Origin: Verrucomicrobiota bacterium JB022
GTDB lineage: Bacteria; Verrucomicrobiota; Verrucomicrobiia; Opitutales; Oceanipulchritudinaceae
Direction of reading: 5' to 3'
Length of the DNA: 64,000 nucleotides
Assembly (NCBI GenBank): GCA_030673845.1
Contig: JAUTCQ010000004.1
Coordinates: 1 to 64,000 of the forward strand
In this document: positions 7,568 to 9,890 of the stretch, piece after piece
Layout of the letters: every line of letters starts with the position of its first letter
How positions within the stretch are numbered: the first letter of the stretch is position 1
Program-made: the position numbers and the translations under genes
Notes under the pieces: model-generated
Database searches by the model: none
The model's input: only the letters and a program-made list of their open reading frames with translations
Told to the model about the DNA's origin: nothing

Positions 7568-8302
7568 TTATTTCATGAAAGGCACCTGCATCGCGGTGGG
7601 CATGGCGCATTGAGCCTCAAAATGATGCGCTTTTCCACCCGCCTTGAACTCCAGCTTGACGGCAGCCGCATGGAGTAACAGGCGCTTTTCGCCGTATTTT
7701 TTCGCAAACTCCCGATTGTAGCGAAAATCTCCATAAGTCGCGTCCCCCACGATGGGCAAGTGCCGGCTGGCGCACTGCACGCGTAGCTGGTGGGTACGCC
7801 CGGTGTGTGGCTGCAGCTCGATCAATGAAAGCAGGGGCTGCGTCTGGCTCTGCTTCAGCTGGCGGGCTTCGCAGAGCGCCGGCTCGCCCCGTGGGCTCGT
7901 GATGGTGCGCAACTGGCCTTGACGCGTCTGGGTCAGCAGCTTGTCGCTCCAGCGCTCCTGCGGGCGCGCGAGGCGCCCCTTGACCACCGCGAGGTAGGTT
8001 TTTTGTACATCGCGCCCGGCAAAGCGGGCCTTCACCTCCGCCGCCACCTGCGCATCGGTCGCGAGCAAAATCAGGCCGCTGGTGGGCGCATCGAGGCGGT
8101 TGAGCAAAAAGTAGCGTGCGCCGCCGTCCAGATACGCCTCGGCGGCCTCATCGTAGGGCAAGGTAAGCAGGGCCCCCTCGTCGGCCACACCGCCGTCATT
8201 GGGGTGAGAGCGTATGCCGGAGGGCTTTTCCAGCGCCAGCAGGCCGGCCGCGTGCTCCCGGATCAGTCGCACTTCCGGGTGTAAATGATCCGCCAGAGAC
8301 AT
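7568..8302 (-). CDS. RluA-family RNA pseudouridine synthase
   Basis: 244 residues from ATG 8302. Upstream in-frame ATGs reach 8425 but would run through the terminator hairpin at 8371-8406, so the shorter start is preferred. The catalytic motif is NRLDAPTSG (68-76) with Asp71, followed by the family signature LQPHTGRTHQLRVQ and IVGDATYG. There is no S4 RNA-binding domain, as in the small RluA/TruC-like members that modify 23S rRNA or tRNA. The exact target base cannot be told. It sits downstream of the tandem small RNA candidates, each of which ends in its own terminator, so it is probably transcribed separately. Confidence 0.9.
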   Translation of the reverse strand: MSLADHLHPEVRLIREHAAGLLALEKPSGIRSHPNDGGVADEGALLTLPYDEAAEAYLDGGARYFLLNRLDAPTSGLILLATDAQVAAEVKARFAGRDVQKTYLAVVKGRLARPQERWSDKLLTQTRQGQLRTITSPRGEPALCEARQLKQSQTQPLLSLIELQPHTGRTHQLRVQCASRHLPIVGDATYGDFRYNREFAKKYGEKRLLLHAAAVKLEFKAGGKAHHFEAQCAMPTAMQVPFMK

Positions 8303-8370: not shown

Positions 8371-8406
8371 CAAAATAAAACCGCCCGGCATCCCAGCCGG
8401 GCGGTT
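8371..8406 (-). terminator. intrinsic terminator of small RNA candidate A
   Basis: Stem AACCGCCCGGC (8379-8389) pairs exactly with GCCGGGCGGTT (8396-8406) around a six-base loop. On the minus strand the stem is followed by TTTTATTTT (8371-8380 region). Confidence 0.85.
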
Positions 8407-8500
8407 TCCCCAAGTGCTTAACCAAACTACAAACTCTAACTGATTCTGAAAACTGCTGTCACTGTCCCTGTGTTATCTAAGACGGGAGTGGGTGGGGATT
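8371..8500 (-). ncRNA. candidate small RNA A (tandem pair, upstream limit uncertain)
   Basis: No protein gene fits. The segment has a conserved box TTGAACAA (minus strand, 8500-8507), a body, a 24-base core at 8412-8435 identical to copy B (it contains GGTTAAGCACTT on the minus strand) and then the strong terminator hairpin. The same order and spacing occur in copy B, while terminator stems and body sequence differ. This is the pattern of duplicated small RNA genes kept for their core. The transcription start is not resolved. The family is not recognised. Confidence 0.6.
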
Positions 8501-8512
8501 TGTTCAAAAGCC

Positions 8513-8620
8513 GAAACGATTTTTGGAAAAAAGTTTTCACCTCCTCTCCAGATGCTTAACCACGCGGCTCCGGGCCCGCTCTTCTCCGCGTTTTAGCTTT
8601 TGAGTCCTAAAAATCGTTTC
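8513..8620. repeat. inverted repeat enclosing a third, diverged core copy
   Basis: GAAACGATTTTT (8513-8524) and AAAAATCGTTTC (8609-8620) are exact reverse complements. Between them, TGCTTAACCA (8553-8562) repeats ten bases of the 24-base core shared by the two small RNA candidates. It looks like a decayed or rearranged third unit. No gene is supported here. Confidence 0.45.
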
Positions 8621-8654
8621 CCGGTGAACCACACCCGAAGTGGTCCGCAGGTTT

Positions 8655-8691
8655 AAAAAAAATGTCGCCGGGGTTGACCGACCCCGGCGAC
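8655..8691 (-). terminator. intrinsic terminator of small RNA candidate B
   Basis: Stem GTCGCCGGGG (8664-8673) pairs exactly with CCCCGGCGAC (8682-8691), loop of eight bases. On the minus strand it is followed by eight T residues (8655-8662). Confidence 0.88.
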
Positions 8692-8792
8692 GCTCTCAAG
8701 TGCTTAACCAAACTACAAACTAGGCTGAAACAAAACTGTAATCGCTCTGCTATTAGCTTAGCTATATAGGTAGATCGCGTGAAGTGGGAAAT
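8655..8792 (-). ncRNA. candidate small RNA B (tandem pair, upstream limit uncertain)
   Basis: Same architecture as copy A about 286 bases away: box TTGAACAA (minus strand, 8792-8799), a 71-base interval with a TATATA-like stretch at 8763-8768, the identical 24-base core at 8698-8721, and a perfect intrinsic terminator. It begins just past the terminator of the mlaD operon (8829-8854), so it needs its own promoter. No open frame of useful length crosses the core. Function unknown. The invariant single-stranded-looking core before a terminator resembles the seed layout of regulatory small RNAs. Confidence 0.6.
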
Positions 8793-8828
8793 TGTTCAAA
8801 GAAAATTCTGATTTTTCCCCAGTACATG

Positions 8829-8854
8829 AAAAACGGGCCCGCAAAAGGCCCGTT
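8829..8854 (-). terminator. intrinsic terminator of the Mla-type operon
   Basis: AACGGGCC (8832-8839) pairs with GGCCCGTT (8847-8854) around a seven-base loop. On the minus strand a T run follows. It lies 52 bases past the mlaD stop. Confidence 0.85.
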
Positions 8855-8906: not shown

Positions 8907-9890
8907 CTAGAAGAGGGCGCCGGCGGCGGTTCCGACGGCCGAGATCGGGCCGGCGTCACCCACCGTGTCGAGCGTCTGCTCGGCCTTTTGCAGCATTGCG
9001 CGCAGCTCCACGTAGAGTTCGTCGTCGTTGACGAGCTTTCCAAGCGTGCCCTCGCCCTTGTTCAGCTTGAGGGAAAACTCGTTGAAGTTGGCGATCGTTT
9101 CCTCCAGCTCGCGAGCGGCCGTGTCATCGTAGAGCAGGCGGCCGATGGAGCCCTTGCCCGCCTTCACGTCTGCAATGATCGTCTGCGCCTCGTCGAGGGT
9201 GGCGCGGGCGTCGGTGGCGGCCAGCTTGATCTCGTCGAGCGTTTCGACCGCGCGGGTGTAGGCGGTGTCGTCATTGATCAGCTTGCCGAGCGTGCCCTCG
9301 CCGCTGTCGATCTTCATCGTGATGGAGTCGATGCGGTCGACGATGGTGTCGAGCTGGGCGCGGTTCTCCGTCACCATGTCGTTGAGGTTGGTGAAGAGAT
9401 TGCCCATGTCGCCTTCGCCAAAGCCGGAAAAGCTGTCGGCGATCTGGTTGAACTTCTGGCTGAGCTGGCTGACTTCGTTCATGATGTCGTTGAAGTCGGC
9501 CGTGTTCTTCGTCTCGATCCGGGCGCCATCCTGCACCATCGACTGGCTTTGGCCATAGTTGACGGCGATGTAGTTTTGCCCGAGCAGGCTGGCCACGCCG
9601 ATGCTGGCGATGGAGTCGCTCGGGATCTGGAACTTCGAGTCGATCCGGAGCACGGCCTGCGCCTTGCCTTCGACCAGCTTCGTCTCCGCCACCTCACCGA
9701 TGCGCACGCCCGCCATGCGGACGTCGCTGCCGGGGGTCAGCGTCTTGAGGTCGTTGAACTGGGCGACGAGGAGGTAGCCGTCCTTCTTGCCGAACTGGTT
9801 GTTGCCGATGACCGAGTAGGTCACGAAAATGAGGATGAGCCCCAGCACAAAGAAGAGGCCCACGCGGACGTATTGCAGCGATTGTTTCAT
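8907..9890 (-). CDS. mlaD: MlaD-like MCE-domain lipid transport protein
   Basis: 327 residues. An N-terminal membrane anchor (about 10-29) is followed by a single MCE domain (about 35-120: DLKTLTPGSDVRMAGVRIG, then VASLLGQNYIAVNYG). A long helical C-terminal region (about 130-310) contains three copies of a GEGTLGKLINDD-type motif. MlaD-type proteins form hexameric rings in the periplasm that take up or deliver phospholipids together with the MlaFE ABC transporter. The start overlaps the mlaF stop by four bases (ATGA type), so the genes are translationally coupled. The helical tail with repeats is longer than in E. coli MlaD and resembles the tails of larger MCE proteins that may span towards the outer membrane. 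Confidence 0.9.
   Translation of the reverse strand: MKQSLQYVRVGLFFVLGLILIFVTYSVIGNNQFGKKDGYLLVAQFNDLKTLTPGSDVRMAGVRIGEVAETKLVEGKAQAVLRIDSKFQIPSDSIASIGVASLLGQNYIAVNYGQSQSMVQDGARIETKNTADFNDIMNEVSQLSQKFNQIADSFSGFGEGDMGNLFTNLNDMVTENRAQLDTIVDRIDSITMKIDSGEGTLGKLINDDTAYTRAVETLDEIKLAATDARATLDEAQTIIADVKAGKGSIGRLLYDDTAARELEETIANFNEFSLKLNKGEGTLGKLVNDDELYVELRAMLQKAEQTLDTVGDAGPISAVGTAAGALF

Follow-up and report, generated by a model that had tools for sequence, protein, structure and literature searches.

Tandem candidate small RNA genes with a conserved GU-rich core in Verrucomicrobiota bacterium JB022

Comparison with described small RNAs

The enterobacterial RNAs MicA and RybB are of small size, end in a terminator and pair with their targets at translation starts. 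Both are described as being under the control of sigma-E, a sigma factor of the extracytoplasmic function (ECF) type, and as down-regulating the mRNAs of outer-membrane proteins (PMC1804206). Here, we describe a tandem pair of putative small RNA genes, units A and B, in Verrucomicrobiota bacterium JB022 (assembly GCA_030673845.1). The analysed stretch, in the following called the window, comprises the first 64,000 nucleotides of contig JAUTCQ010000004.1. Both units are located on its minus strand, which the first-pass annotation of this DNA had left unstated, unit A running from 8799 to approximately 8655 and unit B from 8507 to approximately 8371. Like MicA and RybB, they combine an ECF-type promoter and a terminator with a core whose complement is found at the starts of outer-membrane protein genes, as far as can be predicted from sequence. 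In contrast to MicA and RybB, the core lies just before the terminator and the genes often occur as tandem pairs; a sequence relation was not seen (no Rfam match).

A further parallel is given by FoxI and FoxJ of Fusobacterium nucleatum, a companion pair transcribed from sigma-E promoters and alike in their seeds, which is reported to repress a porin (PMC11005410). Their seed is described as cytosine-rich, whereas the core found here is GU-rich. The FopS/GibS family of Bacteroides thetaiotaomicron is described as a set of multicopy small RNAs directing one shared single-stranded seed against mRNAs of TonB-linked (SusC) transporters (PMC11697453). Unlike the RNAs considered here, FopS is presented with canonical primary-sigma promoters and a 5' seed; it is said to be included in Rfam, and was not among the sub-threshold matches listed around the units. 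No Rfam 15 family reached the gathering threshold in the window, sub-threshold matches being considered around the units. The top one of these, on unit B, was the rteR sRNA (RF04181) with 24.8 bits compared to a gathering score of 72 (E 0.23). The general shape, an unpaired stretch and a GC-rich terminator, is alike, but the match is at chance level and carried by the hairpin. Altogether, MicA/RybB and FoxI/FoxJ appear to be the closest parallels in function, while membership by descent finds no support from any sequence match. In the literature on small RNAs of this group, no report was recognised as describing this RNA, which does not establish its absence from print; one review lists eight distinct small RNAs for the entire Planctomycetes-Verrucomicrobia-Chlamydiae (PVC) group in its table (PMC9029176).

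By computation, the units form a gene family with conserved promoters, terminators and a conserved core, whose complement occurs at outer-membrane protein starts. With a probability of roughly 0.7, we interpret each unit as the gene of an ECF-driven trans-acting small RNA of approximately 100 nt, which would repress outer-membrane protein mRNAs.

Conservation of core, terminator and promoter

In each unit, TTGAAC is followed by a variable body, a 24-base core and a strong hairpin with a T run. The first-pass annotation had claimed two units about 286 bases apart, with a box, a variable body, an identical 24-base core and differing terminator stems, and this description was confirmed: the core starts are 286 bases apart, the cores agree in all 24 bases as well as in the G that follows (25 in total), and the stems differ between the units, as does the variable body. 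The promoter of unit A, TTGAAC-N16-CGATCTA (-35 and -10), lies at 8771..8799, and the same layout is found upstream of relatives. Judged from promoter and terminator, the predicted RNA of unit A would comprise approximately 110 nt (8655..8764), with a start estimated approximately 7 nt after the -10 box. Its core, AGTTTGTAGTTTGGTTAAGCACTT (8698..8721), was located by sequence search and comparison with relatives; the heptamer pair TAGTTTG-TAGTTTG is at 8709-8722, and the intrinsic terminator hairpin at 8664..8691, determined by folding and a terminator scan, is followed by the T run to 8655. For unit B, the corresponding features are the promoter TTGAAC-N17-CGTCTTA (8478..8507), a predicted RNA of approximately 100 nt (8371..8471), likewise deduced from promoter and terminator, the core at 8412..8435 and the terminator hairpin at 8380..8405. 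The latter was obtained by folding and is missing from the list of the simple terminator scan, which contains the hairpin of unit A; the T run of unit B is broken (TTTTATTTT).

Both RNAs fold better than shuffled sequences, mostly via the terminator (z -4.3 for A and -3.1 for B). The folds of ten family members differ, with the terminator as the sole common element. A conserved secondary structure in the core was therefore rejected, and the pairs which RNAalifold had placed inside the core were replaced by a terminator-only structure for the covariance model.

For the distribution of the RNA, the family (17 genomes), an order set (253 genomes; 256 outside the family for the core search) and a class set (335 genomes) were searched. 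The 23-base core, whose presence in related genomes the first-pass annotation had made a touchstone of its proposal, was found in 16 of the 17 family genomes and in all 13 good ones, in 20 copies (18 exact, two with one mismatch), and within three mismatches in none of the 256 order genomes outside the family. With up to three mismatches, the 4.35-Mb genome itself comprises only the two places in units A and B. The nearest named relative, 'Puniceicoccaceae bacterium 5H' (L003; Verrucomicrobiota, class Opitutia by NCBI), shows the identical tandem-pair arrangement behind mlaD, and its two core matches were reached by none of 200 shuffles. Across 21 copies, 19 of 23 core positions are invariant. 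The part kept across families is approximately GUUUGUAGUUUG (approximately 12 nt), while the remainder of the 24-mer varies, so that the 24-base core stands as identical in both units and not as a unit conserved in full between families. The cross-family form, approximately GTTTGTAGTTTG, was matched exactly by 19 of the 21 family copies; outside the family, this was true of 35 of 43 copies. Of these 64 RNAs, 37 carry two copies of the heptamer TAGTTTG and 24 a single one, while three lack it. At one locus (L132, genome G077), six copies stand head to tail at approximately 1500-1690 (UAGUUUG in RNA), so that the presumed seed is naturally expanded there.

A covariance model of core and terminator (R2), built from 21 copies and yielding rough E-values, matched 129 of the 253 order genomes at E <= 1. 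This search of related genomes, which had been proposed earlier, also succeeded at the stricter level of E <= 1e-3: by hand count from the listing, 66 of the 253 genomes were matched, and 50 of these belong outside the family. Unit A was matched at 8655-8737 with 85.5 bits and unit B at 8371-8451 with 74.6 bits, each copy itself being part of the model. The weak R2 matches are not all relatives: a loose form of the promoter was found at 20 of 40 such matches picked by hand from the listing, comprising 15 of the 20 with E-values from 3.5e-4 to 0.008 and 5 of the 20 with E-values between 0.01 and 0.12. With the model R3, 32 of the 335 class genomes were matched at E <= 0.01, six of them outside the order. 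Four of these outside loci were read (L149, L155, L156, L157; L158 was scored only and G496 left out of the reading), and the promoter was found only in L149 (G364), which is likely a relative outside the order. This locus shows a second TTGAAC directly behind the terminator. The tandem arrangement recurs in other genera and families, with pairs in L072, L073, L074, L090, L091, L093, L096, L102 and L103 outside the family and in genome G012 (L014) within it.

ECF promoters are described with AAC at -35 and CGT at -10, and those of the ECF41 group with a spacer of 16 +/- 1 bp (PMC3426412, PMC8103513). The TTGAAC box is one half of TTGAAC-N16/17-CGTCTWA and thereby of this AAC/CGT layout, which places the promoter in the ECF type. 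The TTGAACAA box, which the first-pass annotation regarded as shared by the two units, is real and conserved, but it represents the -35 half of this promoter and no part of the RNA. The loose promoter form was found in 17 of 20 family copies, with TTGAAC (once CTGAAC) followed by CGTC, CGAT or CGTG at a spacing of 16-17 nt in all but one of the 17; the remaining three copies (g9) show TTGAAC with a variant second box. Outside the family, 44 covariance-model matches were taken, of which L105 was dropped as a duplicate of L076, and the loose form was present at 40 of the 43 matches read compared to 31 of 2150 shuffles. The promoter itself had been left out of the covariance model. The longest form, TTTTGAACG-N16/17-CGTCTWA, gave 22 matches in 223 order genomes and none for the reversed control. 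Since 21 of these 22 loci carry an adjoining R3 match, this form is almost private to the RNA; the one match without an RNA (L119) lies in what looks like coding sequence. Such a distinctive promoter provides a handle for finding the sigma factor.

Because promoter, core and terminator are conserved in relatives, the proposal of duplicated regulatory RNA genes is strongly supported, and the units can be assigned to a genuine family of small RNAs which is spread over much of an order and is missing from Rfam 15. Two other origins were rejected. A viral spread was dismissed, as the 22-base core has no exact match in viral contigs. A mimic of boxA and the 5' end of 23S rRNA, for which relatives should keep a boxA-type box beside GGTTAAGC, was discarded because relatives keep TTGAAC and a CGTC-type box 16-17 nt further on; outside the family, GGTTAAGC is lost in many relatives. 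A 23S search in the own genome returned nothing, so that the rRNA operon gave no comparison for this idea.

Candidate targets and proposed mechanism

The entry point to the targets was given by weak covariance-model matches lacking the promoter, which included antisense matches just upstream of start codons, namely of two TorF-type porins (L315, L316; outside the family) and of a long protein that looks secreted (L317, truncated at the end of its locus). The complement CAAACTACAAAC was searched with one mismatch in the 17 family genomes and yielded 110 sites, 21 in the RNA genes and 89 elsewhere, all of the latter being analysed. A site at -40 to +20 of a sense ATG frame with a hydrophobic N-terminus was found in 16 of 89 cases, whereas the antisense orientation gave 3 of 89 and shifted positions gave 45 of 1402 (3.2%; binomial p 2.4e-8). 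The search for mRNA leaders complementary to the core, as recommended by the first-pass annotation, thus led to the translation starts of outer-membrane protein genes, without an overall excess of sites. Its suggestion that the core is a target-binding region is supported by these sites and not proven.

A Pfam/NCBIfam scan covered ten target candidates, six longer target proteins and two genes with the core motif at the 3' end, and thus a part of the 16. A TonB plug domain was determined above the cut-off for L109 and L113 (both own genome), L263 and L238, and below it for the TonB-dependent receptors L241 and L246. Beta-barrel porin 2 was above the cut-off for L111 (own genome) and L318 (G005), as was Porin_O_P for L319, and the TorF-type porins L315 and L316 likewise exceeded their cut-off; L321 (G016) showed a beta-barrel porin below the cut-off and a leader nearly identical to that of L111. 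L238 and L287, the latter left out of the domain scan, seem to represent a single receptor from two genera whose site is retained at -22/-24; both lie under the hydrophobicity cut-off and outside the 16. Among the 16, L230 and L304 are secreted or lipoprotein-like, and L248, L272, L274, L279 and L309 are doubtful or not evidently envelope targets. Duplex energies were better than those of shuffles for L111, L258, L302, L308 and L230 (z -3.6 to -2.7) and marginal for L241, L246, L263 and L287. In L257 (G004), a one-mismatch complement of the core was seen 35 nt upstream of a gene resembling, by eye, that of translation initiation factor IF-3.

These observations suggest the following mechanism, in which transcription, the sigma factor and the signal behind it, a repressive effect and the involvement of any chaperone are inferred from sequence. 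Each unit would be the gene of a trans-acting small RNA of approximately 100 nt. An ECF-type sigma factor, probably one sensing envelope stress, would initiate at TTGAAC-N16/17-CGTCTWA, and transcription would end at the intrinsic terminator. The presumed seed would be the core around UAGUUUG-UAGUUUG, an unstructured stretch immediately ahead of the terminator, which may pair with the ribosome-binding and start region of TonB-dependent receptor and porin mRNAs. Such pairing should block ribosome binding and lower the synthesis of outer-membrane proteins. The tandem copies would share the seed, while their differing 5' bodies may tune dosage, stability or additional targets.

Several results weigh against this mechanism. 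The 12-mer complement is not over-represented, with 89 sites family-wide compared to 154 for the reversed word and six compared to ten in the own genome, and the enrichment is positional only. By the time the hydrophobicity criterion was fixed, the own-genome sites and one site listing had already been viewed; without the six own-genome sites, 13 of 83 remain. Three of the 16 frames are not at the first start of the frame, and an overlap with translation starts says nothing on the direction of regulation. The duplexes of the own targets L109 and L113 were no better than those of shuffles, and that of L238 was near chance. Furthermore, the shorter promoter form TTGAAC-N16/17-CGTCTWA is less specific than the longest one, giving ten matches in the 17 family genomes and five for the reversed control; six of the ten lie on the RNA and four do not, and in the own genome one of two does. 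The four places without an RNA (L025, L049, L053, L054) showed neither a core downstream nor a convincing model match, a weak partial match being located elsewhere in L025. ECF factors typically autoregulate, and therefore it also counts against the mechanism that the genome has a sigma-70 region 4 domain at 22 places, none of which is evidently preceded by the promoter of the RNA.

The same lack of a cognate ECF gene among the 22 region-4 places would fit a trans-acting RNA whose transcription relies on the housekeeping sigma factor, TTGAAC serving as an ordinary -35 box without specificity for stress, since TTGA is common to TTGAAC and TTGACA. However, the second box is conserved as CGTCTWA 16-17 nt later and not as TATAAT, and a sigma-70 scan was empty at the promoters, with one weak match inside RNA B only, which makes this explanation rather improbable. 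A different role of the core, as the site of an RNA-binding protein (Hfq-like or of the RNA recognition motif (RRM) type) beside the terminator, would shift specificity to the variable 5' body or turn the RNA into a sponge titrating the protein. The U-rich core without a shared fold directly before the terminator and the repetition of the heptamer, six-fold in one genome, would be in line with this, and the Bacteroides RRM protein RbpB is described as binding a multicopy RNA family with a preference for single-stranded regions (PMC11697453). That complements of the core are enriched by position at the starts of outer-membrane protein genes, by contrast, is not expected from a protein site alone, and we consider this role unlikely.

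That the units act in cis, as a leader or attenuator of the gene downstream, is very improbable: a terminator does stand between unit B and the pseudouridine synthase gene on the same strand, but the neighbouring genes vary between genera (by eye, for a part of the listing), and two terminated units follow each other without a shared alternative fold. Although the core is crossed by one or two open frames, the probability of a conserved small peptide gene is close to nil, since in 16 of the 21 family units a start codon is missing from every frame in which the core could be read; moreover, the invariance of the core includes codon third positions.

If the interpretation as ECF-driven repressor RNAs holds true, they would be a further, perhaps independent case of RNAs with ECF promoters and outer-membrane targets, unrelated in sequence to those described, and an envelope stress system of Verrucomicrobiota would become testable. 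As a tentative and rather doubtful extension, the family could constitute an order-wide RNA-based envelope stress circuit built around the repeatable heptamer UAGUUUG, with a sigma factor devoted largely to this one RNA, a seed size set by the number of repeats, and a seed present also in the 3' ends of some receptor mRNAs. Since the seed would stand just before the terminators of those mRNAs, the transcripts could release seed-bearing RNAs and cross-regulate other receptors. Two genes were seen to carry the core motif with a terminator-like hairpin at their 3' end: in L310, that of a TonB-dependent receptor with a plug domain, and in L312, one with a receptor-like C-terminus and no Pfam hit; the long frames preceding these motifs end at L310:232 and L312:241, both on the minus strand.

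Neighbouring genes and the region between the units

Upstream of unit A lies mlaD (8907..9890, minus strand), with an ATP-binding cassette (ABC) ATPase gene and mlaE further upstream. The downstream neighbour, behind the terminator of unit B, is the gene of an RNA pseudouridine synthase (7568..8302, minus strand). Inspected by eye for a part of the listing, mlaD and rsmE are among the neighbours in several genera, while the neighbours are changed in others, as would be expected of the gene of a trans-acting RNA.

The stretch between the units (8514-8622, minus strand) comprises a degenerate core-like GTGGTTAAGCATCTGG, a AGGAGGTG stretch and an inverted repeat AAACGATTTTT/AAAAATCGTTT. With the model R3, this degenerate third element scored only 5.9 bits (8527-8562), and the stretch may be the remnant of a third unit. 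The interval from mlaD to unit A contains a GC-rich hairpin (8832-8854), which appeared as terminator-like on the plus strand in the scan and is possibly the terminator of mlaD.
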